Shown piece by piece: positions 4,167 to 46,914 of a stretch of 64,000 nucleotides of DNA (positions within the stretch are counted from its first letter, which is position 1; each line of letters starts with the position of its first letter). The position numbers were made by a program, and so were the translations under genes. Source of the stretch: an uncultured Lachnospiraceae bacterium. GTDB lineage: Bacteria > Bacillota > Clostridia > Lachnospirales > Lachnospiraceae. The notes under the pieces are model-generated. The model was given only the letters and a program-made list of their open reading frames with translations, searched no databases and was not told the origin of the DNA. The DNA lies in NCBI GenBank assembly GCA_902774915.1, contig CACYKH010000014.1:1-64000 (forward strand), given 5' to 3'.

Positions 4167-5375
4167 ATGAGTGAAAAAAGAAGAGATAACAAGAATCGAA
4201 TCTTACATAATGGAGAGATTCAGAAAGCAGATGGAAGATACAGATTTAAGTATCAGGACATTAATGGCAGGACAAGCTATGTTTACAGCTGGCGTTTAGA
4301 TAAGAATGATCCTACACCCAAAGGAAAACCAAGGGATTTGTCTCTAAGAGAGAAGGAAAAACAGATTGAACAGGATTTGTTTAATCAGGTTGTGCCTAAT
4401 GGTGGGAATCTAACAGTTATCCAGCTGGTGGAGAAATATGTCAGTCTTAAAACAGGGGTTCGGCAGACAACGGTTACCGGATATAAAACGGTAATTAATG
4501 TATTAAAGAAAGAATCTTTTGGAAGGATTCGGATTGATAAGGTAAAAACCTCTGATGCTAAGGCGTGGTTGATCAAACTTCAGAAGAAGGATGGTAGAGG
4601 ATACAGTTCAATCCATTCTATAAGAGGAGTTTTGAGACCGGCATTTGAAATGGCTCTTAATGATGATCTGATACGAAAGAATCCATTTGCATTTGAACTG
4701 AGTTCTGTGGTGGTTAATGATAGTGTTATCAGAGAAGCTATCACAAGAAAGCAGGAAAGGGACTTATTAAAGTTTATTAAGGAGGATGCGCATTTTTGCA
4801 GATATTATGATGCTATCTACATACTGTTTAATACAGGACTTAGAATCTCTGAATTCTGTGGCCTTATTATAAAGGATATTGATTTTAAGAAAATGAGAAT
4901 CAATGTTGAAAGACAACTTCAGAGATCGAGTAATATGGAGTACATCATAGAAAAGCCTAAAACTGAAAGTGGAACTAGGTTTGTTCCGATGACCAAGGAA
5001 GTTGCAGAGTGTTTTAAGAATATTATTTCTAACAGAGAAAATCCTAAAGTGGAGCCGATGGTTGATGGTATAGTTGGATTCTTATGTCTTGATAAGAATG
5101 ATATGCCTATGGTTGCTCTTCATTGGGAGAAGTATATGCAGCATATAAGAGAGAAGTACAATAGCATTTATAAGGTACAGATGCCGTGCGTCACTCCACA
5201 TGTATGCAGACATACCTTCTGCAGTAAGATGGCAAAGTCAGGAATGAATCCCAAGACACTTCAGTACATTATGGGGCATGCTGATATAAGTGTTACACTA
5301 AATACATATACGCATGTGAATTTTGAAGATGCCCAAAGTGAGATGGAAAGATTATCTTCGGTGCAGGCTTTGTGA
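4167..5375 (+). CDS. int: Tn916-family tyrosine integrase
   Basis: This 402-residue recombinase inserts and excises the element. The N-terminal arm-binding domain (about 1-75) closely resembles Tn916 Int (MSEKRRDNKNRILHNGE, SYVYSWRL, LSLREKEKQIEQD). A core-binding domain spans about 80-180. In the catalytic domain (190-400) Arg is in NTGLRISEFCGL, Lys in the KTESGTRFVPM strand, H-x-x-R in TPHVCRHTFCSKMA, the late His in MGHADISVTLNTYTH, and the nucleophile is the Tyr of NTYTHV. AAGAGAGG precedes the ATG. The product looks intact. It lies next to the right end, 360 bp before the phosphatase gene that appears to be its target. Confidence 0.93.
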   Translation: MSEKRRDNKNRILHNGEIQKADGRYRFKYQDINGRTSYVYSWRLDKNDPTPKGKPRDLSLREKEKQIEQDLFNQVVPNGGNLTVIQLVEKYVSLKTGVRQTTVTGYKTVINVLKKESFGRIRIDKVKTSDAKAWLIKLQKKDGRGYSSIHSIRGVLRPAFEMALNDDLIRKNPFAFELSSVVVNDSVIREAITRKQERDLLKFIKEDAHFCRYYDAIYILFNTGLRISEFCGLIIKDIDFKKMRINVERQLQRSSNMEYIIEKPKTESGTRFVPMTKEVAECFKNIISNRENPKVEPMVDGIVGFLCLDKNDMPMVALHWEKYMQHIREKYNSIYKVQMPCVTPHVCRHTFCSKMAKSGMNPKTLQYIMGHADISVTLNTYTHVNFEDAQSEMERLSSVQAL

Positions 5376-5445
5376 TGAGAAATGTTTTAGCGGTAGTCAA
5401 TCCGTAGATATATATTCTCAAAACACGAGGTGCACGCGAATGGGA

Positions 5446-5690
5446 TTTGCACCTTTTTGTGCACCTTTTGCCGGCAAAAATATGCTGATATTTGCCAATA
5501 TTTGCAAAAATACGTGTTGTAAATCTGTTGTACAAGCCTTTATAAATCAAGGAAAAACGAGGGAAATAGCTAATGATAAAAGTACTATTCGTATGCCACG
5601 GCAGGATAGAAAGCTATTATCATAAAGCTACATAAATACTTGATTTGCGGGATGGGAAGACGATGGTTTGCACCCCGTGTGCACCTTTTG
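5446..5690. repeat. Duplicated TGCACC-type repeats at the element end
   Basis: TTTGCACC-N5-GTGCACCTTTTG (5446-5470) recurs as TTTGCACC-N4-GTGCACCTTTTG (5667-5690), with a further GGTGCAC at 5429-5435. Direct repeats next to the core are typical arm-type binding sites of Tn916-type integrases. Each pair lies upstream of one copy of the duplicated gene start. Apart from these sites, the 357 bp between int and the phosphatase gene hold no gene. Confidence 0.55.
5573..5606 (+). pseudogene. Duplicated 5' end of the phosphatase gene (attachment-site scar)
   Basis: From ATG 5573, 28 of 34 bases match the true phosphatase start at 5733, including the first 14. It encodes MIKVLFVCHGR before diverging and stopping after 20 codons. 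CHG is the usual form of this motif in bacterial phosphatases, whereas the intact gene has CWG. It is best explained as a core (att) sequence left by integration, possibly from an earlier or tandem element. Confidence 0.6.
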
Positions 5691-5732
5691 AAATGAAGTA
5701 AAAAGAAATCTTTTACAGGAGATTGAGAAACT

Positions 5733-6245
5733 ATGATAAAAGTACTGTTTGTATGCTGGGGCAATATTTGTAGATCCCCAATGTGTGAGTTTGTTTTTAA
5801 AGATTTGGTAAAGAGAAAGGGTGTGGAGGATAAGTTCCACATTGAGTCTCGTGCCACACATACTGATGAGATTTGGAATGGGCACGGTAATCCGGTATAT
5901 CCACCAGCTAAGGAGAAAATGGCTGAGCATGGCATTTCCTGCAAAGGCAAGAGAGCTCAGCTGCTTATTCAGTCTGAATACAATGATTATGATTATATAA
6001 TCGGAATGGATGATCTGAATTTAAAGTGGATGAAAAGAATCCTGAAGGCAGATGAAACCTCACAGGGTTTTGATAGTGCAGAGGCTAGAAGAGGACAGAA
6101 GATTTCTCTTCTTATGGACTACACAAATCGTCCCGGAAGTGTTGCAGATCCATGGTATACAAGAGATTTTGAAACAACCTACAGAGATGTTATAGAAGGT
6201 TGTGATGGATTTTTTAAGTACCTTGAAGATCAAAAGATGATATAA
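5733..6245 (+). CDS. Low-molecular-weight protein-tyrosine phosphatase
   Basis: The 170-residue cytoplasmic protein has the family P-loop C8-W-G-N-I-C-R14-S at the N-terminus (CX5R, nucleophilic Cys and phosphate-binding Arg) and the general acid Asp in VADPWYTRDF near residue 140. These enzymes dephosphorylate tyrosine or arginine; the Ile in the loop (CxGNICR) fits tyrosine phosphatases, while arginine phosphatases such as YwlE have Thr there. AGGAG precedes the ATG by ten bases. The first 14 bases of the gene match the integrase-proximal scar, so the promoter and perhaps the first codons were supplied by the element. Confidence 0.9.
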   Translation: MIKVLFVCWGNICRSPMCEFVFKDLVKRKGVEDKFHIESRATHTDEIWNGHGNPVYPPAKEKMAEHGISCKGKRAQLLIQSEYNDYDYIIGMDDLNLKWMKRILKADETSQGFDSAEARRGQKISLLMDYTNRPGSVADPWYTRDFETTYRDVIEGCDGFFKYLEDQKMI

Positions 6246-6288
6246 TGCGGAAAGTATTATTCGTTAGATTAGGAAGTATAGTTTTACA

Positions 6289-7212
6289 ATGAGTACAGTA
6301 GTAGTTTTACAGCAAATGGGAGTTATTATAATCCTGGTTGCGATTGGTATTTATTTATACAAGAAAAAAGTTGTTGATAACACGGTATCTCAAAAGATAT
6401 CCGTAATAGTAATGGATATCTGTAATCCAGCTCTTATACTTGCATCCATCCTTTCGGGAAATGTGACCGCAAGCCATAAGGATCTTTTAATAGCAATTAT
6501 ACTTGGAGCAATATTCTACATTGGTCTTGTGGTTTTAGGAGCAATCCTTCCATTCATCCTTAAAGTAGAAAAAGATAAAAGGCGTTTCTACAATCTAATG
6601 ACAGTTTATACAAACGTTGGCTTTATCGGAATTCCCGTTGCAAGAGCAATCCTGCCAGAAAATGCCATCCTCTATGTAATTGTTTGTAACGTTATGTACA
6701 GCCTTCTTTTCTATACCCATGGAATAACAATTCTCAGTAGTGGCAAAGAGAAGATAAACCTAAAGCATGTTCTAAGTCCAGGAACCATCATGGCGGTGCT
6801 TAGTCTTCTTGTATGCTGGTTTAAGATAACTCCACCACCACTGATCAGTAGCAGTATTAGTTATATTGGAAATGCTACAGTATTTTTGTCTATGGTACTT
6901 CTTGGAGTATCCATTGCTAGGTCAGATGTAACAACTGGCTTTAAAGAAATTAGGCTATGGGGTTACATTGTTATCAGGCTTGTGCTCCTTCCGATTGCAA
7001 TGTTCTTTGTACTCCGCGGAATTGGATGTAAAGATATAACAGTCCTCGGATTCTGTCTTATGGCGGCAATGCCGGTAGGCAATCTGCCACTCATTCAGTC
7101 CGAAAAAATTGGAGAGGATACAGAGCTCCTCTCCAAAGCAATTACAGTTACTACAATGGTCAGCATGGTGACCATTACATTACTTATGATGCTGTTCACA
7201 TCACTGATCTAG
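6289..7212 (+). CDS. AEC (auxin efflux carrier) family transporter
   Basis: This 307-residue polytopic membrane protein has about ten predicted segments in two five-helix halves, with the conserved NPALILASIL motif near residues 45-54 and TVYTNVGFIGIPVA near 104-117, both characteristic of the AEC family (MleP/YwkB-like). Members export or exchange organic anions such as malate. The substrate cannot be told from sequence. It lies 43 bp after the phosphatase gene on the same strand and may be co-transcribed with it. Ribosome binding site is weak (AGGAAG, about 14 bases before ATG). Confidence 0.88.
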   Translation: MSTVVVLQQMGVIIILVAIGIYLYKKKVVDNTVSQKISVIVMDICNPALILASILSGNVTASHKDLLIAIILGAIFYIGLVVLGAILPFILKVEKDKRRFYNLMTVYTNVGFIGIPVARAILPENAILYVIVCNVMYSLLFYTHGITILSSGKEKINLKHVLSPGTIMAVLSLLVCWFKITPPPLISSSISYIGNATVFLSMVLLGVSIARSDVTTGFKEIRLWGYIVIRLVLLPIAMFFVLRGIGCKDITVLGFCLMAAMPVGNLPLIQSEKIGEDTELLSKAITVTTMVSMVTITLLMMLFTSLI

Positions 7213-35542: not shown

Positions 35543-37924
35543 CTAAAATTTTACTATGGTTACGCCAGCGTCGCCTTCTCCGAACTCACCACTTCGGAAT
35601 TCTTTGACGAAGCTCTTTTTCTTTAGATATTCTGTGATTCCCTTTCTGAGTGCGCCGGTTCCTTTACCATGAATGATGGTAATCTGCTCAGCGTGTGTGA
35701 GAAGAGCATCGTCCAGATATTTATCTAGAATATTTATTGCATCATCTACTGTTTTACCTAGTAGATTTATTTCTGGTTTAAATGTCATGGCAGTGCTTGA
35801 ACTGTTGAGAGCAGCGGCTCTGTAAGCCTGTCCCTGGTTCTTCTTGTTCAGCTTTTCTTCGTCTATTATCAAAAGATCGCTGGCAGGGAATCTGGATGTG
35901 AGAATTCCCATCTCTACAAGGAACAGTCCCTTTGAATCTGCAAGTTCTATAATGTGTCCTTCTGTATCCAGGCTGAGAACAAGTACCTTATCTCCAATAT
36001 GGAAGTCTGAATTCTTATGTCCGGAGGTTTTCTTCTCCTTCTTTTCTTCCTTTACTTTGTAGGAATCCTTCTTGTTACGAAGGCGGGACCTTGTTTCCTC
36101 CATTGTTCGGGCATCTGCCTTATGAGGATTTTTCAGCCACTTATTATAATCTCTGATTGCTGAATCTGCAGTTTCCTTAGCGTCTTCAAGGATTTCTCTT
36201 GCTTCAGCTCTGGCTTTATCGAGAATCTCTTCCTTCTTTGTATCCAGCTTGGACTCTTTGTCAGCCAGTCTCTTTCTTAACTGCTTTTCTGTATTAACTT
36301 CAATCTCGAGTTCTGAACGAAGTCTGGACATTTCCTTTTCGGATTCTTCCAGTTCGGAAATAATACGCTCCATATTGATCTGGTTTTCGTTCATGCCACT
36401 CTGAGCAGCCTCGGTAATTTCCTTTGGCATGCCAAGCCTTGTGGCGATTGCGAATGCATTTGATGAACCAGGTATTCCGATCATCAGCTTGTAGGTTGGT
36501 CTGAGAGATTTCATGTCGAATTCGCAGGATGCATTTTCAACACCTTCTGTACCAATTGCATAGGTCTTAAGCTCGGTATAATGGGTTGTAGCCATTACTC
36601 TGGCTCCAAGATCCTTAAGATGATTCAGGATTGAAATGGCAAGAGCGGCACCTTCGGCAGGGTCCGTTCCGCCACCAGGCTCATCGAAAAGAACCAGTGA
36701 TTTATCTGTTGCATGCTTGATGATGTAGATGATATTGCTCATATGAGATGAGAAGGTGGAGAGACTGAGCTCAATACTCTGTTCATCACCAATATCTGCA
36801 TATACATCATCAAAAACTGTAAGCTGACTTCCTTCCAAAGCAGGCACATGAAGTCCGGATTGTCCCATAAGAGTAAGGAGTCCCAAAGTCTTAAGGGATA
36901 CGGTTTTACCACCTGTGTTTGGACCGGTGATTATCAGCAGATTATAATTATCTCCAAGGGTGATATCCACAGGAACTGCAGTGGCTGGGTCCAGAAGAGG
37001 ATGCACGGCCTGCTTCAGCTCCACTATTCCCTTGTTATTCCAGACGGGTTCTGTAGCACCAGTTTTCTTAGCATACTTAGCCTTGGCAAAACAGAAATCC
37101 AGTTCCACAAGAGTCTTATAGTTTTCGTGGATTTCTTCACGAACGGAAGCGGCCATACGACTGAGATCGTAGAGAATCTTTTCAATCTCAACATGTTCAT
37201 CGTTATGAAGCTCCTGAATTGTATTGTTTAGCTCGACAACCTGCATTGGCTCAATGAAAACTGTGGAGCCAGTTTGGGAGCGGTCATGTACCATTCCCGG
37301 AAATGCATTCTTGTATTCTATTTTAACAGGGATACAGTATCTGCCGTTTCTTGTTGTAACAAGGGCATCCATCAGCATATCTCTGTTGTTCGAATTCTTG
37401 ATTATTTTGTTCAGGGTGTTATGAAGACTTGCTTCGGATTCAACAATCTTTCTTCTTATGGAACGAAGATTTCCGGAAGCATCATCCGCTATCTCGTCAG
37501 AAGAAATGATACATCTTCTGATCTCGCTGGATATATCTTCAAAAACAACCAGATTATCAAAGAGTGGAGTAAGAGAATCATAAGCTTTTTCTTCTCCGCC
37601 CTGATCATCGTATTTCTTAACTTCAGCCGTTGCTTCAAGCAGGCTTGCTATATCTAAAAGCTCTGCTGCTGAAAGAGATGAATCTATTTCAAGAAGTCGC
37701 AGACTTTCATTTACATTCTTTACGCCAGAGAAGGAAACCTGTCCGTGTTTTTCGAGTCTCAGGAACGCGTCTCTTGTATTCTGCTGGAGCTCCTGGATGA
37801 CATTTATCTCATTAAATGGTTTTAAATGAGATATCTTATTTTTGGCCCCTTGAGTTACGGCGTGTTCACTAAGCTGTTCTAATATTTTATTGTATTCCAA
37901 AACTCTTATAGAGCGTTTGTTCAT
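35543..37924 (-). CDS. mutS2: Endonuclease MutS2
   Basis: Start chosen at ATG 37924, after GGAGAAAAGG, giving 793 residues. MutS core ATPase has Walker A ITGPNTGGKTVSLKTLGL near 330-347, Walker B LVLFDEPGGGTDPAEG near 405-420 and a following conserved ATTHYTELK. A long coiled coil (about 515-600) leads to a basic KOW-like region and the C-terminal Smr nuclease domain (about 720-793, LLGKTVDDAINILDKYL, HGKGTGALRKG). It acts on stalled or collided ribosomes and on recombination structures. First gene of the five-gene minus-strand run. Confidence 0.95.
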   Translation of the reverse strand: MNKRSIRVLEYNKILEQLSEHAVTQGAKNKISHLKPFNEINVIQELQQNTRDAFLRLEKHGQVSFSGVKNVNESLRLLEIDSSLSAAELLDIASLLEATAEVKKYDDQGGEEKAYDSLTPLFDNLVVFEDISSEIRRCIISSDEIADDASGNLRSIRRKIVESEASLHNTLNKIIKNSNNRDMLMDALVTTRNGRYCIPVKIEYKNAFPGMVHDRSQTGSTVFIEPMQVVELNNTIQELHNDEHVEIEKILYDLSRMAASVREEIHENYKTLVELDFCFAKAKYAKKTGATEPVWNNKGIVELKQAVHPLLDPATAVPVDITLGDNYNLLIITGPNTGGKTVSLKTLGLLTLMGQSGLHVPALEGSQLTVFDDVYADIGDEQSIELSLSTFSSHMSNIIYIIKHATDKSLVLFDEPGGGTDPAEGAALAISILNHLKDLGARVMATTHYTELKTYAIGTEGVENASCEFDMKSLRPTYKLMIGIPGSSNAFAIATRLGMPKEITEAAQSGMNENQINMERIISELEESEKEMSRLRSELEIEVNTEKQLRKRLADKESKLDTKKEEILDKARAEAREILEDAKETADSAIRDYNKWLKNPHKADARTMEETRSRLRNKKDSYKVKEEKKEKKTSGHKNSDFHIGDKVLVLSLDTEGHIIELADSKGLFLVEMGILTSRFPASDLLIIDEEKLNKKNQGQAYRAAALNSSSTAMTFKPEINLLGKTVDDAINILDKYLDDALLTHAEQITIIHGKGTGALRKGITEYLKKKSFVKEFRSGEFGEGDAGVTIVKF

Positions 37925-38076
37925 AACCTTTTCTCCAATAGACAATACCTCCCATAAATATACCTCAAATAGCGGAAAAATGGAAGAGTTTGCGCATTTT
38001 AAATAGTATATATTTTTATTTTCATGTGGTACAATGAAAAAGGTGATTGAAATCTGATTTTGGGGAGGAAGGGGTT

Positions 38077-39582
38077 ATGAAACTTCGTGACCTACTAAAA
38101 TATAATGATATAGTAATCCAGTGTCATGATAATCCGGATGCAGATGCGTTGGCATCGGGCTATGGATTATGGTGGTATCTGAAAAAGAATGGAAAAAGGC
38201 CAAGATTTATATATAGAGGAAAAAACAAAATACAGAAGAGTAATCTCGTGCTAATGCTTAGTTTTCTGGAGATTCCTGTAAAATACGAGCCTGATTTTTC
38301 TGATAATCCGGAGCTTCTTGTTACCGTTGACTGTCAGTACGGACAGAGAAATGTTACAAAGACCGAGGCTCAGGAAGTAGCTATAATAGACCATCACCAA
38401 AAAACTGTAGAGCTGCCTCCACTGTCAGAAGTGAAAAGTAATTTAGGCAGCTGCTCGACAATAATCTGGGACATGATTAGGCAGGAAGGTCTGGATGTTG
38501 TTTCAGATGTTAATTTATCCACTGCTTTATATTATGGCCTCTATACAGATACGAATCGTTTTTCTGAGATTTCCCATCCTCTTGACAGGGACATGATAGA
38601 CTGCCTTATTGTAAATAAAAGTATTATTACCGAGATGAGTAATTCCAATATTTCGCTGGATGAACTCAAGATTACAGGACGCGCCATACAGCATTATCAT
38701 TACAAGGAACAAAATAAATATATAGTTATGCATGCAGAAAAATGCGATCCTAATATTCTCGGAGTGATAAGTGATTTTTCTATGGAGACCGCCGGCATTA
38801 ATGTTTGCCTTGCATACTATACAAGTCCTGAGGAAGTGAAGTTTTCAGTGAGAAGCTGCGTAAGGGAAGTCCATGCAAATGAGCTGGCTGCATTTATTGC
38901 AGATGGTATTGGCGGTGGTGGAGGACATTTGTTTAAAGCAGGTGGAACCCTCAGACCTGAAAAGCTGCCTGAAACAAAGGATGAAAAAGAGTTTGATGCA
39001 ATGGTTTACTCACTTTTTATCGACAGGCTGAATCAGTATTTTGATATGTATGAGATCATTTATGCAAAAGAAATGGTTCTGGATACAACTGATATGGAGA
39101 AATACGAGAAGAAGCCTATGGAGCTTGGATATGTAAAAATGACAGATATCTTTCCTGTTGATTCTCTTGCGGAGATCAGAACTCTTGAGGGCGACATCAA
39201 TATCAGAGTTAAAGAAGATACATATCTTATGATCGGAATAGCTGGTGAAGTTTATCCTATAACAAAACAAAAGCTGGAGAGTAGTTATGAGCTTACAGGA
39301 AACAAATACTCTCACAGCTTTGAATACGATCCTTCGATCAGGAATATTGTTACTGGCGAAAAAATAAGTGTTCTTAATTTTGCAAATGGTGTAATAAGTA
39401 CAGGGAAGTCCCGAATTTTGGCTAAGAAGCTGGATCATCATGTGAAGCTTTTCACAGCCTGGGATGATGAAAAATACTATTCGGGTACTCCTGGTGATTA
39501 TATAGCGGTGCGTGAAGATGATGAACACGATATCTATATAATCAGTGGTGAACTTTTCGACGACCTGTACGAAAAGATTTAA
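38077..39582 (+). CDS. DHH/DHHA1 phosphoesterase with C-terminal extension
   Basis: Start chosen at ATG 38077, after GGAGGAAGGGG, giving 501 residues. DHH domain: CHDNPDADALASGYGL near 16-31, LVTVDCQYGQ near 80-89, AIIDHHQK near 104-111 and the late Asp in YGLYTDTNRF. DHHA1: GGGGGHLFKAGGTLR near 290-304. Such proteins degrade nano-RNAs, pAp or cyclic dinucleotides (NrnA-like). About 170 extra residues at the C-terminus, predicted beta-rich, are not part of NrnA and are not recognised. It converges with the TIR gene; the two stops overlap by four bases. Confidence 0.85.
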   Translation: MKLRDLLKYNDIVIQCHDNPDADALASGYGLWWYLKKNGKRPRFIYRGKNKIQKSNLVLMLSFLEIPVKYEPDFSDNPELLVTVDCQYGQRNVTKTEAQEVAIIDHHQKTVELPPLSEVKSNLGSCSTIIWDMIRQEGLDVVSDVNLSTALYYGLYTDTNRFSEISHPLDRDMIDCLIVNKSIITEMSNSNISLDELKITGRAIQHYHYKEQNKYIVMHAEKCDPNILGVISDFSMETAGINVCLAYYTSPEEVKFSVRSCVREVHANELAAFIADGIGGGGGHLFKAGGTLRPEKLPETKDEKEFDAMVYSLFIDRLNQYFDMYEIIYAKEMVLDTTDMEKYEKKPMELGYVKMTDIFPVDSLAEIRTLEGDINIRVKEDTYLMIGIAGEVYPITKQKLESSYELTGNKYSHSFEYDPSIRNIVTGEKISVLNFANGVISTGKSRILAKKLDHHVKLFTAWDDEKYYSGTPGDYIAVREDDEHDIYIISGELFDDLYEKI

Positions 39583-42500
39583 TCATCAATTCCATAAAGT
39601 GATTTCTGCTCCTCGGAGAGTTCTTCTCCGTGGAGCATTTCATTTCCTATCTTAATCAATTCTTTGTCGGAGAAATGCTCAAAATATCCGTGTCTCATAT
39701 CACTTGACAATGTATAAAATCTATCAGTGGAAACCTGATATCCACACACTTTTGGTATTGTAGCCGCTAGTTCCCAGGACTCGGTATCTAAGGCGTACAT
39801 ATTTTCAGATATGGAGTTAAGATAAACATAATTGTTATCCTTGCTAACATACCATTCTGTGTTATATGTATAATCATCAATTTCTATCTCAGAAATAGGT
39901 TTGAAGTCCTTTGCATCATATACTGAAATAGAATTGCTATAGCATACAAGTATATAATCCTCTGAGCCCTTTTTGTAATAGAAGGCATCTACAGGCACAC
40001 TTCCTGTTTTAGTTATTGTGGAAATAGTGTTCCCTTCGCAGTCGAGTATGATCGTTCTTTTAGAATCGGTTACAAGAATCTTATTATTCTCAATAAATCG
40101 CGCATTATTAGTACCAGCCCAATCTTCCGGAAGGGATAAAGGAGTGACCTCGCCGGTGGACATATCAATAAAATAATCTCCACCAGACGATGCGTAGTAT
40201 AGTAAATTTTCTTCAGAAGAGAAGACAGGTTTACTTGCAGGGATAGTTCCTTCTGGTACATCAAATGTTTTACTTGTTCCATTAGAAAGATCCATAGTAT
40301 TAATTTTATAATTATTGTTTTCATCTAAATTAAAATAAGCAAATATATTGTCGGAAGCATAGAGCAAGTGGCTGGAAGTGGAATGGCACTGGCCAACCGG
40401 TTCCAAGGTTCTTTCGCCTGTTTCTAAGGACATCTTTCCGAGATATAAATCGCTTATATCGTCATCAAATGGCAGATTTAGAGCAAAATAGTATAAATAG
40501 GAATCGTAGATAGTAATAAATTCCATCCAATAAGTTGCTTCAATGTCATCTGCATCGAATTTTACAATTTTATAAGTATCATCTTTCAGGTTATATATGA
40601 TAAAAGCTCGAGTGTCTTCGGTGTAACCATCTTCTACATAATAATTTTCATCCATATAGTTTAGATAAGAAAAATAAAAGTTTTCCTGCCCATTAAGTAT
40701 ATGCCAATAAGGATTGTTAAAACTCGTGGCATAGTGAGAAATTCTTGTACTTTCTTCTGAACATATATATATTCCATCATTATAAACGATATATGAGATG
40801 TTCTGATTTAGCTTTTTAGTTAAATTAAATTGTCCTTCATTAAGTGTTCCATTATAACCATCGTTTGTAATGACAGATAAAGACTCATCATCATAATACA
40901 AATAAACTATTGGACTATTTGCGTCATAGCTTTCTTTTATTTCTCCGGTCTTCCAGTCATAGATAGTGCATATGGAACCCCAATAATGAATGACACTTTT
41001 ATTATCTATAGAATCAAGGAAGCCTTCTTTTGCCCCGGCTTCATTATTGGTGAATTCACTTCTCCATGTTTCTTTGGTGGTTTTTACATCAATGCATCGA
41101 AGGGTCACATCTGTATTTGACAAGTATCTATTGTTTTTATATATCATACTAAAATTTTCAGAATACTTGTATCCACTTATCAAAAGATATTCTTCGTTAT
41201 TCCAAAAATATGAAGTGGTATGTAGGTTGCTTTGTTCTAGTTCAGTAACCTTGAGCGTGGATAAATCCATTATATAATTAGTAGGCTGTGAGTTACTATC
41301 TAAAGAACCCATAGCAAGAAGCTTTTCTTCAGGAGAAATAGAGAATGTACTTACTACCTCATCCTCAGGGAAGTCGGTTGGAAAGCTTTCCAGAAGGCTG
41401 CCATCCTTAGAACTGTATTTTCTAAGCTCCGCACCACCGAAGAAGGCATAAAAAGCATCTTCTTTTTCACTGTTAATTATGTTTGTGTTTATTTTGTAAT
41501 CTTCAGATTCAATGGTATATGCAATTTCCCCTGATTGGGCATCATAAGCTGTGATAGCATTTTCATTCCATACCAAAAGATAATTGTTCTTTGTAAATGT
41601 GATGTTATACATGTCCTCGATTGATAATGTAGTTTCAAAAGTTTGCTCGTGAGTTTCAGTATCCCATACCTGTACGGTTTCGTATATATTGATAGAGGCG
41701 AGGTACTTTCCATCTTCAGATATTGATAATCCGTTTATGTCCATCTTAGATGTGTAAGAATAATCAAAATGGAAATTCTCATCAGAAGTAGGCTCGTAAA
41801 CTCCGGTAGCATCTGTGAGTGCATTTATGGCGGCTGTTGTAACCGGCTGCTTTTTGTTTTTTTCACTTGGCAGACCCGCCAGAGCCAGCTGGATTGCGGT
41901 TATCTTCTCAGATTCATCTAAAAGCTGCTGGGATTCATGCGCCAGATATTCGGATTTATTAATGAGCGCATTTTTATAATTTTTATTAATGGAATAAATG
42001 CCGTATATAAGCTGCAAAACAAAAAGAAGAGCTACAACAGAAATAATGGCAATGACCTTTGTCAGGTGCTTGATGTAGTAGGCTCTTTGTCTGTTAATTA
42101 GCTCACTATAAGAACAGCCAATAATGGCGCTTACCAATCGTGGCAGTTCTATTTTTTCGGCGATTTTTCTGGCAAATCGAAAATCACAGGAGAGGGGTTC
42201 CACCAGAGTGTCGTCTTCGTATTGAAGAACTTCAGGTACTACCTCTGCAGGTTCGCCCTCAATTAGAACAGTTAATATATGATCGCGGGAATGCTTCTCA
42301 AGAAAATAATTAATCTCGCGAAGTACCCATTCTGATTCCTTGGTTTTCTTAGAACAAATAACTATTAAATAGTCGGTGTTATCGAGTGCATCTGTTATTG
42401 TGTCAGAGAGATTGGCTGTTAGAGAGAGCTCGTCAGTATCACGAAATACTCTCTCAATCTTTTTGAATCCTGTTTTTTCCTGTATTCGATCCGGAATACG

Positions 42501-42590
42501 ATAATGCTCAAGCTCTCGCTGAATCAGTTTTGCAATTTTAGTATCTTCTACCTCGTGCTTGTATGAAATGAATGCATTGTACTTACTCAT
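39579..42590 (-). CDS. TIR domain, membrane segment, beta-propeller-like protein
   Basis: The 1003 residues have three parts. The TIR domain (1-150) begins MSKYNAFISYKHEVED; the motif W88-V-L-R-E92-I has the spacing of the catalytic Glu motif of NAD-cleaving TIRs such as SARM1 (WVHKEI). A basic stretch RQRAYYIKHLTK then precedes one membrane segment (about 177-198). After a helical SEYLAHESQQLLDESEKI region, about 720 residues (280-1000) form repeated beta-strands with WD40-like blades (ISEDGKYLASI, VQVWDTETHE, SPEEKLLAMGS, ISVYDAKDF). By the positive-inside rule the TIR is cytoplasmic and the propeller outside. A NADase effector gated by an outer sensor is an inference. GAGGTGG precedes ATG. 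Confidence 0.85.
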   Translation of the reverse strand: MSKYNAFISYKHEVEDTKIAKLIQRELEHYRIPDRIQEKTGFKKIERVFRDTDELSLTANLSDTITDALDNTDYLIVICSKKTKESEWVLREINYFLEKHSRDHILTVLIEGEPAEVVPEVLQYEDDTLVEPLSCDFRFARKIAEKIELPRLVSAIIGCSYSELINRQRAYYIKHLTKVIAIISVVALLFVLQLIYGIYSINKNYKNALINKSEYLAHESQQLLDESEKITAIQLALAGLPSEKNKKQPVTTAAINALTDATGVYEPTSDENFHFDYSYTSKMDINGLSISEDGKYLASINIYETVQVWDTETHEQTFETTLSIEDMYNITFTKNNYLLVWNENAITAYDAQSGEIAYTIESEDYKINTNIINSEKEDAFYAFFGGAELRKYSSKDGSLLESFPTDFPEDEVVSTFSISPEEKLLAMGSLDSNSQPTNYIMDLSTLKVTELEQSNLHTTSYFWNNEEYLLISGYKYSENFSMIYKNNRYLSNTDVTLRCIDVKTTKETWRSEFTNNEAGAKEGFLDSIDNKSVIHYWGSICTIYDWKTGEIKESYDANSPIVYLYYDDESLSVITNDGYNGTLNEGQFNLTKKLNQNISYIVYNDGIYICSEESTRISHYATSFNNPYWHILNGQENFYFSYLNYMDENYYVEDGYTEDTRAFIIYNLKDDTYKIVKFDADDIEATYWMEFITIYDSYLYYFALNLPFDDDISDLYLGKMSLETGERTLEPVGQCHSTSSHLLYASDNIFAYFNLDENNNYKINTMDLSNGTSKTFDVPEGTIPASKPVFSSEENLLYYASSGGDYFIDMSTGEVTPLSLPEDWAGTNNARFIENNKILVTDSKRTIILDCEGNTISTITKTGSVPVDAFYYKKGSEDYILVCYSNSISVYDAKDFKPISEIEIDDYTYNTEWYVSKDNNYVYLNSISENMYALDTESWELAATIPKVCGYQVSTDRFYTLSSDMRHGYFEHFSDKELIKIGNEMLHGEELSEEQKSLYGIDD

Positions 42591-42740
42591 TTACTATCCA
42601 CCTCAGATACTTTGATTTCTATATAATGATATTATAATCAAGAGGGTATGTAAAGTGTAGAAATGGCTATTTTTCTTGCTATATTCGATAAATAGTGATA
42701 ACCTACTGTCTTAGAATGAAACTGGAAATGAGGATGATTT

Positions 42741-43682
42741 ATGAACTATATCAACACCCTTAGAGAGGGCGAAAACATAACAGAAACTTACTTCTGTAAA
42801 GATAAGGTTGTAGCTCAGTCAAAAGCTGGAAAAACCTATTATAGCCTGAAGCTTCAGGATAAGACAGGAGTGATCGATGCAAAGATTTGGGACCTTTCAA
42901 ATGCCATCGAACATTTTGAGGCTATGGATTATATAAGAATAAGTGCGCAGGTAACTTCGTTCAATAATGCGCTGCAGTTAAATGTAAAACAGGTGAGAAA
43001 GGCGGAAGAGGGAACCTTTGATGTGGCCGACTATATGCCTGTTTCAGAGTTTAATATTGATGACATGTATAAGGAGCTTCTGGAACTCATCGATACAGTT
43101 CAGGATAAATATCTGAATCAGCTTCTTAAGCTGTTTTTTGTTGAAGATGCAAGCTTTATCAAGGGCTTCAAAAAAAGCAGTGCTGCGAAGAGCATGCATC
43201 ACTCATTTATAGGAGGACTTCTTCAGCACACACTATCAGTTGCAAAGATTTCAGACTTCCTTGCAAGTCAGTATCCAATAATGAATAGAGACCTTCTTGT
43301 GACGGCAGCTATCTGCCATGATATAGGTAAGGTTTATGAGCTGTCTGAGTTTCCTGAAAATGACTATACAGATGCAGGAAATCTTATGGGCCATATTGTA
43401 ATGGGCGCTATGATGATCAGAGATAAGGCAAAGAAGGTACCGGATATTCCGATTGATCTGCTAAATAAACTGGTTCATTGTATACTTGCTCATCACGGAA
43501 AGCTGGAATTTGGTTCTCCAGAAAAACCAAAGATCATAGAAGCTATGGCGCTTTCCTTTGCTGATGATACAGATGCAAAACTGGAGGCTTTTAAAGAGGC
43601 GGTAGAAGGAGACCAGAGTGGTGAGACCTGGCTTCCTTACAATAAGATGTTTGAAACATTTATAAGAAAAACGGACGGTTAA
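42741..43682 (+). CDS. yhaM: YhaM-type 3'-5' exoribonuclease (OB fold plus HD domain)
   Basis: The 313-residue protein has an N-terminal OB-fold (about 1-95, KTYYSLKLQDKTGVIDAKIWD) that binds nucleic acid and a metal-dependent HD domain (about 155-300): H-H in KSMHHSFIGGLLQHTLSV, HD in AAICHDIGKVYEL, later His in LAHHGKLEFGSPEKP and the DD of ALSFADDTDAK. YhaM trims RNA 3' ends and single-stranded DNA in Gram-positives. It is monocistronic, divergent from the TIR gene and followed by a hairpin overlapping its stop codon. Confidence 0.92.
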   Translation: MNYINTLREGENITETYFCKDKVVAQSKAGKTYYSLKLQDKTGVIDAKIWDLSNAIEHFEAMDYIRISAQVTSFNNALQLNVKQVRKAEEGTFDVADYMPVSEFNIDDMYKELLELIDTVQDKYLNQLLKLFFVEDASFIKGFKKSSAAKSMHHSFIGGLLQHTLSVAKISDFLASQYPIMNRDLLVTAAICHDIGKVYELSEFPENDYTDAGNLMGHIVMGAMMIRDKAKKVPDIPIDLLNKLVHCILAHHGKLEFGSPEKPKIIEAMALSFADDTDAKLEAFKEAVEGDQSGETWLPYNKMFETFIRKTDG

Positions 43683-43695
43683 TAAACCGTCCGTT
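43670..43695. terminator. Perfect 11-bp hairpin at the yhaM stop
   Basis: AACGGACGGTT (43670-43680) pairs with AACCGTCCGTT (43685-43695), four-base loop. The plus-strand T-tract is weak, the minus strand has an A/T-rich continuation, so it may serve both convergent genes. Confidence 0.6.
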
Positions 43696-43710
43696 CGTTA
43701 TTTCCAGATA

Positions 43711-44130
43711 TTATTTTCTACTTTGAATGTAGTCGTTAATTCTCTGAACAACTTCATCCTCTGATTCGTTAATTCCGTCAGATGCATTAACTACATTTTC
43801 AAGACCAGCCTGCATATTCTCAAGAGTTTCAACTGAGAGTACATCTAAATACTCTGTAACCTCTTCCCAGGTAATGCTGTGCTTCATGGATAATTCTGAA
43901 ACAGTTTTCATCAGCTCATCTGAAAGATGGAACTGTTTGTTGATTGTTGCAACATTCAGATCAGCTTCCATATACTCGTCAAGAGTAATAGTTCCGTCAC
44001 ATGCGGCAGCATATGTGGAAAGAGCAACTGTTGCAAGGCATACATCTGTAATTGCTCTCTTTTCTTCTAATGAATATTCATCCTTCTCTTTGATATCCAT
44101 TTTATCAATAACTGACTTAAGTAATCCCAT
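43711..44130 (-). CDS. TerB-like small acidic protein
   Basis: This 139-residue cytoplasmic, all-helical, acidic protein has ACDGTITLDEYMEADL near 44-59, resembling the metal-binding loop (ADG-x-I-x-x-x-E) of TerB/tellurite-resistance and DUF533 proteins, followed by helices with TVSELSMKHSITWEEV. Family match is tentative. No ter genes are near. AGGGGAGG precedes ATG. It stands alone between convergent yhaM and the divergent isochorismatase gene. Confidence 0.6.
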   Translation of the reverse strand: MGLLKSVIDKMDIKEKDEYSLEEKRAITDVCLATVALSTYAAACDGTITLDEYMEADLNVATINKQFHLSDELMKTVSELSMKHSITWEEVTEYLDVLSVETLENMQAGLENVVNASDGINESEDEVVQRINDYIQSRK

Positions 44131-44249
44131 ATTAACCTCCCCTTAAAAGATAACAATAAGTTGTTATTTTGATTCGTTGAAATATGTCAACGTTGAATAT
44201 ATAATAGAAATGATTTTTTTATCTGTCAAGGAATATAAGGAGAAAGACC

Positions 44250-44750
44250 ATGAAGAAGACTTTAATTGTAATAGATATGCAGAATGATTTTATTGATGGA
44301 AGCCTTGGAACTGCTGAGGCGGTTGCAATAGTAGATAATGTAAAGAAGAAAATTGAGGAGTATAAGGCGAATGGTGACGAAATAATCTTCACCAGAGATA
44401 CTCATCAGGAAAATTACATGGAAACAAATGAAGGAAAGCATTTGCCAGTTGTTCATTGTATAGAGGGAACTTCAGGCTGGGAGATCAGAGATGTTCTGGA
44501 TACAGAAGGCTGCGAGATCATCAACAAGCCTTCGTTTGGCTATACGGGTTGGAGCGGCTACAGCTTTGAAGAAGTTGAGCTTGTTGGACTTTGTACAGAT
44601 ATTTGTGTTGTTTCTAACGCACTTATCATCAAGGCGCTCTTCCCAGAGATTAGAGTGAGCGTAGACAGTTCATGCTGTGCAGGCGTTACTCCAGAGAGCC
44701 ATGAGGCAGCCCTTACAACCATGAAAATGTGCCAGATTGAAGTGATTTAG
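44250..44750 (+). CDS. Isochorismatase-family hydrolase (nicotinamidase-like)
   Basis: The 166-residue cysteine hydrolase has the catalytic Asp in LIVIDMQNDFIDG (residue about 9), a candidate Lys in CEIINKPSFGYTG and the nucleophilic Cys in VGLCTDICVVSNAL near 118, with THQENY and HCIEGTSGWEI as in nicotinamidases. The likely reaction is nicotinamide to nicotinate in NAD salvage, but the family also cleaves other amides. AAGGAG precedes ATG. Single gene, with the tRNA-Gln promoter immediately after. Confidence 0.8.
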   Translation: MKKTLIVIDMQNDFIDGSLGTAEAVAIVDNVKKKIEEYKANGDEIIFTRDTHQENYMETNEGKHLPVVHCIEGTSGWEIRDVLDTEGCEIINKPSFGYTGWSGYSFEEVELVGLCTDICVVSNALIIKALFPEIRVSVDSSCCAGVTPESHEAALTTMKMCQIEVI

Positions 44751-44790
44751 AACAAAAATCTGCGTATTTAGAAAAAACCTAATAAAATGC

Positions 44791-44819
44791 TTGCATTTTT
44801 TAATATTGTTGTATATAAT
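44791..44819 (+). promoter_or_regulatory. Promoter of tRNA-Gln
   Basis: TTGCAT (44791-44796), 17-bp spacer, TATAAT (44814-44819). Confidence 0.8.
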
Positions 44820-44821
44820 AA

Positions 44822-44850
44822 CCCTTGCGCTGTGAAAAATGGCGCAAGGG
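44822..44850 (+). other. Leader hairpin before tRNA-Gln
   Basis: CCCTTGCGC (44822-44830) pairs perfectly with GCGCAAGGG (44842-44850), right at the predicted transcript start and without a T-run. It would sit in the 5' leader of the tRNA precursor. Confidence 0.5.
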
Positions 44851-44860
44851 AATTAAATAT

Positions 44861-44932
44861 AGGGGTATCGCCAAATGGTAAGGCAACGGACTCTGACTCC
44901 GTCATTTCTAGGTTCGAATCCTAGTACCCCTG
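44861..44932 (+). tRNA. tRNA-Gln (CUG)
   Basis: Acceptor AGGGGTA pairs with TACCCCT, discriminator G. Anticodon stem ACGGA/TCCGT encloses CTCTGAC, anticodon CUG. 72 nt. Its 3' 24 bases begin the left copy of the island repeat. Confidence 0.95.
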
Positions 44933-44977
44933 CTTGAAAGGTCTTAGTGGATAATTGAAACTAAGACCTTTTTTGTT
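44909..44977 (+). repeat. Left 69-bp direct repeat of the tRNA-Gln island
   Basis: From the tRNA T-arm through its terminator, 68 of 69 bases are identical to 46973-47041 (only C44933/A differs). The tRNA is complete on this side. Confidence 0.95.
44939..44974 (+). terminator. Terminator of tRNA-Gln
   Basis: AGGTCTTAGT (44939-44948) pairs with ACTAAGACCT (44960-44969), then T6. The same hairpin recurs in the right repeat. Confidence 0.9.
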
Positions 44978-45001
44978 GACTTTAGCTGCCATATAGGATA
45001 A

Positions 45002-45019
45002 AATACGAAAAAACGTATT
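45002..45019. promoter_or_regulatory. Island operator 1
   Basis: AATACG-N6-CGTATT, perfect 6-bp arms, 24 bp before the first island gene. A near-identical site lies before the third gene (45895-45912). Probable target of the island's XRE regulator. Confidence 0.5.
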
Positions 45020-45043
45020 AGAATTCGAAAAGGAGGCTATAAG

Positions 45044-45400
45044 ATGAGTTGTCATGATATAGGCGGAGGTATGAATTATGTATCGATTAAAGTGTTGGAG
45101 CTGTATAAAAGCGGGATGATCAGTAAGGAGGCTGCTATTCAATTAGTTCATGCTTGTCGAAAAGGGGTTCACTGGTGTGACGGAAATGAATATGAAGCTT
45201 TCGAGGGATTAATAGATGAGGGTATTTGTGGCTTGTGTTTTGAAAAATATGACGAGCTTACTAATATTTATGATAACGATATAGAGCATCCTGGTCGTTA
45301 TGAAGTGTTTAAAGATTATGATGATTCTGCGGCTCATTTTTTTCTATGTGATAAATGTAAAGCCAAGGTAATTGATGCATATCGCAAAAAGAATCAATAA
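45044..45400 (+). CDS. Cys-rich small island protein
   Basis: The 118-residue acidic protein is not assigned to a family. Its C-terminal half has paired cysteines, GICGLCFEKYDEL near 67-79 and LCDKCKAKVID near 103-113, forming a likely CxxC-x~30-CxxC zinc-binding module; further Cys lie at HACRKGVHWCDG. Residues 10-40 are helical (SIKVLELYKSGMISKEAAIQL). No membrane segment. AAAGGAGG lies seven bases before ATG. It is first of the three island genes and has its own upstream operator-like repeat. Confidence 0.75.
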   Translation: MSCHDIGGGMNYVSIKVLELYKSGMISKEAAIQLVHACRKGVHWCDGNEYEAFEGLIDEGICGLCFEKYDELTNIYDNDIEHPGRYEVFKDYDDSAAHFFLCDKCKAKVIDAYRKKNQ

Positions 45401-45435
45401 TCAGTTTACGTCATAGGTAGTTATTGCGTTTAGTA

Positions 45436-45464
45436 TTGAACTATTATATCAATACTTTTATAAT
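45436..45464 (+). promoter_or_regulatory. Promoter of the XRE regulator
   Basis: TTGAAC (45436-45441), 17-bp spacer, TATAAT (45459-45464). Confidence 0.7.
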
Positions 45465-45496
45465 GTACTTATTTATTTGATATGAGGATAAGTACA
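45464..45496. promoter_or_regulatory. Inverted repeat from -10 to start codon of the XRE gene
   Basis: TGTACTTAT (45464-45472) and ATAAGTACA (45488-45496) form perfect 9-bp arms with the GAGG ribosome binding site in the 15-base loop and the A of the ATG in the stem. It could be an autoregulatory operator or an RNA hairpin affecting translation. Confidence 0.5.
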
Positions 45497-45855
45497 TGGT
45501 TATTAGTGATAGAGTATTTGAATTATTAAAGGAAAAGGGGATGTCTCAAAAAGAGTTTTCTGAAAGAACGGGAATTCCTCAAAGTACGATAAGCGATTGG
45601 AAAAGAAAAAATGTCAATCCTGCTTCTGATAAAATAATGATTATATGTGAGGTTTTGGAAATAAGCCCAAGTGCGCTGTTATCTGGAATAGGTGATGATA
45701 CTTACGTTACTCCTGAGCATATGATAATTGATAAAGAGGGGGTTGAATATCAATTAGTCAATGGTTTTCGAGAACTGGATGAAAAAAGAAAAGAACGCCT
45801 TATAGGTTATTTGGAAGCCTTACAGGAGCATCTAAAGAATAAAGATAACACATAA
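45496..45855 (+). CDS. XRE-family transcriptional regulator
   Basis: The 119-residue protein has an N-terminal cI/Cro-type helix-turn-helix (about 5-60: VFELLKEKGMSQKEFSERTG, then IPQSTISDWKRKNVNPASDKI) and a helical C-terminal region ending in EKRKERLIGYLEALQEHL, probably for dimerisation. Such regulators commonly repress accessory genes and themselves. GAGG lies eight bases before ATG, inside an inverted repeat. A short hairpin terminator follows. Shared operators before the first and third island genes make it the likely island regulator. Confidence 0.88.
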   Translation: MVISDRVFELLKEKGMSQKEFSERTGIPQSTISDWKRKNVNPASDKIMIICEVLEISPSALLSGIGDDTYVTPEHMIIDKEGVEYQLVNGFRELDEKRKERLIGYLEALQEHLKNKDNT

Positions 45856-45858
45856 TAG

Positions 45859-45880
45859 AACAGGTTTAAAAACCTGTTTT
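45859..45880 (+). terminator. Terminator after the XRE gene
   Basis: AACAGGTTT (45859-45867) pairs with AAACCTGTT (45870-45878), followed by TT and AT-rich sequence. Confidence 0.6.
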
Positions 45881-45894
45881 ATTATTACACACAC

Positions 45895-45920
45895 AATACG
45901 CATAATCGTATAATTATACG
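45895..45920. promoter_or_regulatory. Island operator 2
   Basis: AATACG-N6-CGTATA (45895-45912) matches operator 1 with one change, and overlaps a perfect 14-bp palindrome CGTATAATTATACG (45907-45920). It lies 40 bp before the Rpn-like gene. Confidence 0.5.
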
Positions 45921-45960
45921 TTTATACAATAAGCTATAATTTGGAAAAGGAGGGAGAAGT

Positions 45961-46914
45961 ATGAAAGTGCAAAATGTATTAGCAAATAGAATAGATACAG
46001 CTGGAGAGATGATTTCTTATGATGAAGCATGTAAACAAGTTCTTGCAAATAAGATTATTCTTGCATGGATAATAAAAGGTTGCATTCAAGAGTATAATGA
46101 TTATAGTATTAAAGAAATAGCTGATAGATTTATTGAAGGGGACCCAGAAATATCTAAAGCGGCTGTACATATTGATGAAATAGCTGAATTTATTACTGGA
46201 ATGAATAATGAAAGCGCTACAATGAAAGAAGGCACGACTACATATGATATTAAATTTCGTGCTCTTTTGCCAGAAATGGATGAAGTGCTTGATATGATCA
46301 TTAATGTAGAGGCGCAGAATGACTTCTATCCCGGTTATCCTATTGTTAAAAGAGGAATATACTATGCTTGTAGAATGATTTCAGAACAGTATGGCACAGT
46401 ATTTACAAAGTCAGAATATAATAAGATAAAAAAGGTTGCAAGCATATGGATTTGTCCGAATCCGCCAGAATATAGAAGGAATACTATTACTGGTTATAAA
46501 ATGGGCGAACATGGGATAATCGGTTCAGTTCAGGAAAAAGAGAGTAATTATGATTTATTAAAAGTAATTATTGTATGTCTTGGGGGAGAAGATAAGGAAG
46601 GATATAATGGTGTGTTAAGGATGCTAGATGTTCTTCTGTCTCAAGATACAGAACCATCAACGAAGAAAAAGATATTGCAAGAAGAATTTGGCATTCCGAT
46701 GACTACAAAATTGGAAGGAGATGTAGATACTATGTGTAATTTAAGTAAAGGCGTATATGAAAAGGGAATAGATAAAGCAAGTGTTGAGTCTATCATTAAT
46801 CTTATGGATAGTACAGGGTGGGATGTTGATATGAGTATGGATAAATTAAAGATTCCATCAGAAAAAAGAGACCTATACAAAGCTGCTGTTGAAGCTGAGC
46901 TTCAACTGGCATAA
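45961..46914 (+). CDS. Rpn/PD-(D/E)XK nuclease-family protein
   Basis: The 317-residue protein resembles the PD-(D/E)XK 'transposase-like' proteins frequent in clostridia. The nuclease core is TTYDIKFRALLP near 92-103 (Asp) followed by IINVEAQNDFYPGYPIVKRGIYYACRMIS near 112-140 (E-x-Q in place of E-x-K, as in Rpn). Later come WICPNPP near 170, LLKVIIVCLGG, a helical part and EEFGIPMTTKLEGDVDTMCNLSKGVYEKGI, a typical C-terminal signature. Rpn proteins stimulate recA-independent recombination by DNA cleavage. AAGGAGGGAG precedes ATG. Activity with Q for K needs testing. Confidence 0.7.
   Translation: MKVQNVLANRIDTAGEMISYDEACKQVLANKIILAWIIKGCIQEYNDYSIKEIADRFIEGDPEISKAAVHIDEIAEFITGMNNESATMKEGTTTYDIKFRALLPEMDEVLDMIINVEAQNDFYPGYPIVKRGIYYACRMISEQYGTVFTKSEYNKIKKVASIWICPNPPEYRRNTITGYKMGEHGIIGSVQEKESNYDLLKVIIVCLGGEDKEGYNGVLRMLDVLLSQDTEPSTKKKILQEEFGIPMTTKLEGDVDTMCNLSKGVYEKGIDKASVESIINLMDSTGWDVDMSMDKLKIPSEKRDLYKAAVEAELQLA

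Follow-up and report, generated by a model that had tools for sequence, protein, structure and literature searches.

The window analyzed here, the first 64,000 nucleotides of contig CACYKH010000014.1 (GenBank assembly GCA_902774915.1, forward strand) from an uncultured Lachnospiraceae bacterium with relatives among rumen and gut species, carries two adjoining genes whose pairing is very probably functional. One (39579..42590, minus strand) is an open reading frame (ORF) with an ATG start for a protein of 1003 amino acids (aa), in which Pfam matches and homologues identify an N-terminal TIR domain, followed by a predicted membrane helix and a WD40-like propeller region; the other (38077..39582, plus strand) encodes a long DHH/DHHA1 phosphoesterase with an additional C-terminal domain, referred to below as C. 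The DHH gene is taken from the ATG at 38077, the longest ORF beginning at a TTG at 38047. The two genes are convergent, and a TTAA at 39579..39582 is common to both stop codons. The proposal that they form an outside-to-inside signaling unit, comprising a membrane TIR receptor and a DHH/DHHA1-C enzyme, is in our estimate evenly balanced between right and wrong. An earlier note on this DNA, made from the sequence alone, had described the TIR protein as a single-protein sensor sitting alone between housekeeping genes. That description has to be revised: the TIR gene is not alone, because the adjoining DHH gene is a recurrent partner.

Linkage of the TIR and DHH Genes

The pairing was surveyed by scanning the window and 80 loci with hidden Markov models (HMMs), by tabulating gaps between genes, and by a class-wide search with the C domain. 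In gene clustering of the window and 20 fetched neighborhoods (up to 20 kb, chosen from genus and family matches and mostly on long contigs), the DHH family adjoined the TIR gene in 18/21 loci; the next most recurrent neighbor family reached 6/21. Viewed from the DHH side, a TIR gene was adjacent or one ORF away in 60 of the 90 long-DHH loci from four surveys: 35/37 in the genus, 16/31 in the rest of the family, 8/18 in the class (5 of these 18 loci belonging to the window's own family) and 1/4 in the order's remaining families. A locus was counted among the 90 if its match extended into the C domain, as judged by eye. The count of 60 includes other TIR types; the search for these used a single six-sequence HMM and may have missed some. 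One ORF intervenes at G028, G082, and G109; at G012:C155 the contig ends within the neighboring TIR homologue, of which the propeller part remains, and the DHH genes of G014 and G149 are themselves cut. The misses include G246:C22, which was not fetched, and G058, G539, G066, and G105, on short contigs or near contig ends, while G004, which starts at base 2 of its contig, was scored neither way. The class-wide C-domain survey gave matches in 18/291 genomes, three of them already in the earlier surveys, and 18 further loci were examined.

The TIR protein was found in 35/37 same-genus genomes searched and is patchy across the family (25/200 genomes). The two same-genus genomes lacking both genes, G018 and G032, are 86 and 91% complete; G018 still has short TIR genes. 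The chance that a random gene falls within two genes of a TIR gene is ~0.3% in 23 same-genus genomes, because these hold only 0 to 7 TIR_2 genes over the cut-off per genome; the estimate takes gene density as one per kb and counts TIR_2 matches alone. Within the family survey, a long DHH gene was present in 17/25 genomes with the TIR protein vs. 15/175 others (Fisher test, 1.7e-10), and the association held without the window's genus (15/23 vs. 15/175; 3.2e-9).

Across loci the two genes are either convergent or co-directional, overlapping in the same direction in L101, L102, L112, and L115, and the other neighbors of the pair vary. In Lachnospiraceae UBA4381, the nearest named relative, both genes are co-directional, with 72% identity to the window in the TIR region and 73% in the DHH protein; the scan of genome contigs for the TIR protein gave one locus. 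The UBA4381 TIR gene is split between two frames around 2520-2620 of L032, which may be a sequencing error.

The evolution of the pair was assessed from the 528 comparisons among 33 linked pairs. Identity averaged 57% for the TIR, 56% for the DHH protein and 25% for the ectodomain, and ectodomain identity was below TIR identity in 528/528 comparisons. TIR and DHH identities were correlated (Mantel r 0.88 without the window, 0/2000 permutations), a correlation that alone could reflect plain vertical descent. Trees of the DHH and TIR proteins, with 57 rows each and with only propeller-type TIR counted as linked in the DHH tree, needed 10 changes of linked state apiece, against shuffled means of 17.7 and 16.7, respectively; the linkage is therefore clustered, yet was gained or lost several times. 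The window TIR groups in a divergent set with those of G024:C7 and G009:C3. A second complete TIR-DHH pair is present in its own genome, at C8, and some same-genus genomes hold several copies of the TIR protein. Two further arrangements were recorded: G002 has a tandem pair plus a third copy of another TIR-propeller type with near-identical TIR regions (L134 6120-12535 and L133 7882-11073), and in the window's own genome three TIR_2 matches, one under the cut-off, lie within ~2 kb at G000:C2:232433-234519.

Domains and Topology of the TIR Protein

The TIR domain and the helices after it occupy residues 1-165 (42096..42590, minus strand), as delimited by Pfam, conservation, and alignment to plant TIRs. 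Pfam ThsB_TIR (residues 7-112; E-value 2.7e-11) and TIR_2 (residues 7-124; 1.3e-10) were both over their cut-offs, while PADLOC, run on single proteins and not on whole neighborhoods, returned only weak ThsB matches (1.6e-4 for this protein). NCBIfam gave nothing useful, and no NTPase domain of the STAND/NLR design was matched in the protein by Pfam at E up to 0.1. In a 59-sequence alignment that includes the query, with some rows cut by locus ends and one identical pair, I8, Y10, F49, D51, C79, W88, and E92 are invariant (59/59). A catalytic-type glutamate is thus present within an SxWxxxE motif, as E92 (codon 42315-42317). A profile of 30 TIR regions found plant TIRs as its best matches (AT1G72930, 4.3e-6; Roq1, 5.1e-6), with W88 and E92 in the columns of the W and E of both proteins. 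In plant TIRs, the glutamate aligned with E92 is the catalytic residue. The W-x3-E residues of NADase type (NAD, nicotinamide adenine dinucleotide) that the earlier note had recognized are upheld by the Pfam matches, the conservation, and the plant alignment. The TIR domain has conserved catalytic-type residues, from which we infer catalysis.

A membrane helix is predicted at residues 180-198 (41997..42053, minus strand), the best 19-mer of a hydrophobic stretch at 171-203. Of 55 homologues at least 700 aa long, 50 have one hydrophobic segment following the TIR domain that passes the threshold of 1.6, with one extra weak segment in 3 of these, and the remaining 5 scored 1.43-1.60. Lysine plus arginine was more frequent in the 15 residues before the helix than in the 15 after it in 53/55 homologues and equal in 1, with means of 5.1 before and 2.7 after. 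The outer part of the TIR protein family has a net charge of -8.0 per 100 residues, compared with -7.9 for mature exported-type ORFs (n=79) and -2.9 for helix-free ORFs (n=389); the ORFs of the fetched loci served as the reference for charge and composition. Export of an N-terminal TIR domain that lacks a signal peptide is hardly to be expected, and the NAD pool lies within the cell. From the charge bias, the exported-like composition, and these two considerations, it follows that the TIR domain is most probably cytoplasmic and the propeller outside. The single membrane pass and this orientation agree with what the earlier note had proposed, and are read here from sequence features.

The predicted outer region (residues 285-946; 39753..41738, minus strand) resembles a double WD40-like propeller. 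Several Pfam propeller models matched the protein at 278-432 and 760-940, only PQQ_2 passing its cut-off (28.8 bits vs. 27.6), and WD40 proteins were among the matches in a single-sequence PDB search (best 6.8e-6). A profile built from 16 ectodomains reached solved WD40 proteins, including WD-40 repeat protein 2ymu at 3.5e-22. AlphaFold models of the TIR and DHH proteins were both built from two-row alignments. In the low-confidence model of the TIR protein, 56 strands span residues 285-946, and a helix at 161-225 spans the membrane segment. Many tandem WD40 proteins were among the 50 Foldseek matches listed, with TM-scores of at most 0.36. The model and these matches are consistent with two seven-bladed propellers, no more. 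The outer propeller anticipated by the earlier note is thus recovered by the WD40 profile and the predicted strands; of the AlphaFold model that it had suggested as a check, the strands fit a double propeller, but the model as a whole is poor, with a mean predicted local distance difference test score (pLDDT) of 51.7.

The DHH/DHHA1 Enzyme and Its C-Terminal Domain

The partner protein contains DHH (9.9e-15) and DHHA1 (2e-8) domains by Pfam, and its profile matched the PDB at 5.3e-11. The DNPD.D, DC, DHH, D of TD, and GGGH motifs are invariant in 21 DHH-family sequences and conserved at >90% in 57. The protein scored 40.5 bits with the NrnA model (NF053633), far under the cut-off of 350, and had zero PADLOC matches. 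The possibility that the long gene is simply the genome's ordinary short DHH enzyme was considered and is unlikely, since a separate 342-aa DHH frame exists at G000:C3.

The C domain (residues 326-511 of the longest ORF; 39022..39579, plus strand) comprises ~180 residues without a clear family. It is weakly PGDYG-like: PGDYG gave a weak Pfam match in 8/30 C-domain members (best 0.0064), and this family was absent from the open-access literature searched. A PDB search with the C-domain profile gave nothing significant (best E 0.16).

Parts of the pair recur in other combinations. Beside the DHH-C gene of L174, a 580-aa TIR protein (5328-7067) combines TIR_2 (2.5e-19) and DUF6273 (8.1e-17) Pfam domains, with a hydrophobic stretch between them by eye. 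The TIR proteins beside the DHH-C genes of L088 (6436-7953) and L092 (137-1552) are L174-like by eye, and by the same criterion the 311-aa TIR protein of L084 contains hydrophobic stretches. The outer domain of the partner TIR proteins has been exchanged at least once. The C domain in turn occurs without the DHH half in four proteins of the family survey (genomes G074, G185, G236, and G247), and all four of these C-only proteins are encoded alongside a class III cyclase and a TIR protein (L127 7522-11782, L128 7435-11822, L129 7789-12306, and L100 554-3866). The cyclase has a receiver-like start and is PycC-like in L129 (4.7e-22); a GAF-GGDEF gene is also present in L127, L128, and L129, and L127 has a cyclase-C fusion. 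The C-domain match spans the DHHA1 region too in L100 (query 251-510) and L127 (268-509). We tentatively regard C as a shared nucleotide reader, and the operon of TIR, cyclase, and C-domain genes is possibly an undescribed Pycsar-like or signaling system.

A Two-Gene Unit between mutS2 and yhaM

In the window, the pair is flanked on the left by mutS2 (35543..37945, minus strand), assigned from Pfam MutS_V and Smr and from relatives, and on the right by a yhaM-like gene (42741..43682, plus strand; NCBIfam YhaM 5.7e-55, below the model's cut-off). In 7/19 other same-genus genomes, mutS2 and yhaM adjoin each other at a distance of 112-320 bp with no pair between them, the 19 being those with both genes found among 22 searched. 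Homology between the window and these empty sites runs up to about 37988 (G012) and starts again at about 42653 (G008), which places the approximate edges of the unit at 37989..42652. The interruption of ~4.66 kb holds just the TIR and DHH genes; the pair was therefore gained at this site, or lost elsewhere, as one unit. Strict vertical conservation, which the earlier note had named, together with a housekeeping role, as telling against its interpretation, was not seen, given that the neighbors differ and the site is empty in relatives.

Six neighboring genes (35543-46914, with small ORFs at 45044 and 45496 left out) were scanned with Pfam and comprise MutS2, DHH, YhaM-like, TerB-like, isochorismatase, and PDDEXK_2-like proteins. 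No nucleotide cyclase and no ThsA, of either the SIR2-SLOG or the transmembrane-macro type, was found among these six. The TerB-like small protein lies near yhaM at 43711-44130 (4.5e-4, under the cut-off). Farther right, 44861-46914 contains tRNA-Gln, then small ORFs, one of which looks by eye like a helix-turn-helix protein, and a gene resembling a PDDEXK_2 transposase (0.0013, below the cut-off); this stretch may be an element at the tRNA. Scanning for promoters and terminators gave results near chance level.

Discussion

The architecture of the pair suggests how such a unit might operate. The WD40-like ectodomain would meet something at the cell surface, such as a ligand, a wall fragment, a competitor or a phage part; receptors would then cluster and their cytoplasmic TIR domains become active. 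From NAD or some other nucleotide, the active TIR would make a small signaling nucleotide, and the cytoplasmic DHH/DHHA1-C enzyme would hydrolyze or read that signal as a reset or output arm. Catalysis by the TIR, the handling of its product by the DHH enzyme, and the nature of the stimulus are the inferred parts of this scheme. That the enzyme acts on a TIR-derived nucleotide falls, in our judgment, slightly short of an even call. We are a little more hesitant about the broadest formulation: a Clostridia family of membrane TIR enzymes with exchangeable outer domains, an NAD-derived messenger and a dedicated DHH/DHHA1-C eraser or reader, whose C domain is reused beside TIR and cyclase genes.

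Several observations weigh against a dedicated signaling pair. In the TIR tree, 20/57 TIR proteins have no DHH gene within two genes; among these are the additional TIR proteins of L061, L068, and L072 (a second copy in each) and three surplus ones in G002. Two of them, from L061 and L068, are the nearest kin of the window TIR in that tree. Conversely, no TIR gene was found alongside in 29/90 long-DHH loci, with 1 more unscored, so a different use of the enzyme is possible. Since DHH/DHHA1 enzymes are active on a wide range of substrates, the one used here need not derive from the TIR. Pfam DHHA1 was not found in the C-domain proteins of L100, L127, and L129. The AlphaFold model of the DHH protein is unusable (pLDDT 42.9) and that of the TIR protein is poor. 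Cysteine content was considered as evidence of topology and set aside, exported-type and helix-free ORFs being hardly apart (1.27% vs. 1.50%), so the topology rests on charge and composition.

Two alternatives deserve equal weight, each less probable than not. In the first, the pair mediates anti-phage abortive infection: the ectodomain senses a phage or surface damage, the TIR domain depletes NAD, the cell dies, and the DHH enzyme is a safety lock against leakage. The catalytic-type TIR residues, the patchy distribution in the family (25/200 genomes), and the several copies in some genomes fit this scenario, as do the fast divergence of the ectodomain and the site empty in relatives, both of which argue for a recognition conflict. 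Near-universal presence in the genus, however, disfavors a typical defense-island gene. PADLOC returned weak ThsB-type matches only and nothing for the DHH protein; the TIR protein had 0 matches among 50,697 phage records, and two scans of viral contigs gave no confirmed match. The defense reading is weakened because the protein is present in 35/37 same-genus genomes, has no widely recurring neighbor besides the DHH gene, and gave weak PADLOC ThsB matches; a primary role in defense seems to us less probable than not.

In the second, the protein serves as a sensor of the envelope or the population and plays no part in cell death; here a low level of TIR messenger would tune cyclic-nucleotide-like signaling and the DHH enzyme would set that level. 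Presence throughout almost the whole genus suits such a sensor, as does the recurrence of C with a class III cyclase and a TIR gene, joined by GAF-GGDEF in 3/4 loci; with a separate short (342-aa) DHH gene in the genome, the long enzyme need not be the housekeeping copy. On the other side, the window pair has no direct tie to a cyclase, and a rapidly changing ectodomain is seen more typically in recognition conflicts.

It is unlikely that the TIR domain is a scaffold only, gathering partners at the membrane and leaving the DHH enzyme as sole catalyst. Animal receptor TIR domains are mostly scaffolds, and catalysis by this TIR is putative, but W88, E92, and D51 are kept in 59/59 sequences, and the W and E align with those of plant TIRs. 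An adjacency owed to nothing but shared gene-order ancestry in a rearranging genus is already disfavored and very improbable: although 37/90 loci come from one genus and the correlated TIR and DHH distances are what vertical descent predicts, the pair persists while its orientation and other neighbors change, wider samples still give 16/31 and 8/18, the core flanks mutS2 and yhaM are themselves adjacent in only 7/19 genomes, and different TIR types adjoin the same enzyme.

The two-gene signaling unit proposed here shares features with several known systems. With NrnA-type DHH-DHHA1 phosphoesterases the partner shares the DHH and DHHA1 domains and motifs, but it carries the extra ~180-residue C domain and falls well below the NrnA cut-off (40.5 bits vs. 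350). Related TIR proteins are annotated by name in plasmid records: Butyrivibrio fibrisolvens pNP243 encodes a homologous TIR region in WP_167562754.1, annotated as a toll/interleukin-1 receptor domain-containing protein, although that entry gives no function and has no annotated DHH neighbor in 16.9 kb of an incomplete gene table. Neither the TIR and DHH pair nor this receptor design was described in the open-access titles and abstract openings listed, a scope that leaves most subscription papers outside. The C-domain-sharing operon resembles Pycsar in having a PycC-like cyclase (4.7e-22 in L129) and a TIR protein, but differs in its C-domain protein and, in 3/4 loci, GAF-GGDEF.

Thoeris is likewise a two-gene arrangement of a TIR and a nucleotide-handling partner, and Pfam places the window TIR in ThsB_TIR, although PADLOC matches it to ThsB only weakly (1.6e-4). 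The window TIR, however, continues into a membrane helix and an ectodomain, and its partner is a DHH phosphoesterase. In the Thoeris account cited, ADP-ribose signals made by the TIR are read by the partner (PMC11204291).

The window TIR residues also align with those of Roq1, a plant TIR, but NUDT7 is a Nudix enzyme, whereas the window partner is a DHH enzyme. Plant TIR receptors of the NUDT7-linked kind are intracellular. As described in the cited report, cell death triggered by plant TIRs is suppressed by NUDT7, a phosphodiesterase that cleaves 2',3'-cAMP/cGMP and so removes a TIR product (PMC9153377), as the DHH enzyme may do in the window.

Animal Toll-like/IL-1 receptors, as outlined in the source cited, offer a parallel to the predicted overall design: a single pass, a cytosolic TIR, and a large outer recognition domain (PMC7075850). 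The window protein differs in being bacterial, in its N-terminal TIR, in a WD40-like rather than leucine-rich repeat or immunoglobulin ectodomain, and in its phosphoesterase neighbor, and the resemblance is offered as an analogy, with no claim of homology for the whole design. If the proposal is correct, bacteria, like animals, would build TIR enzymes into genuine membrane receptors that carry an external recognition domain, and would have a matched enzyme to switch the TIR signal off, the unstudied C domain of which would be a candidate reader of TIR products. The pair would then offer a well-delimited system of two genes, widespread in a single genus, for studying the turnover of TIR messengers directly.

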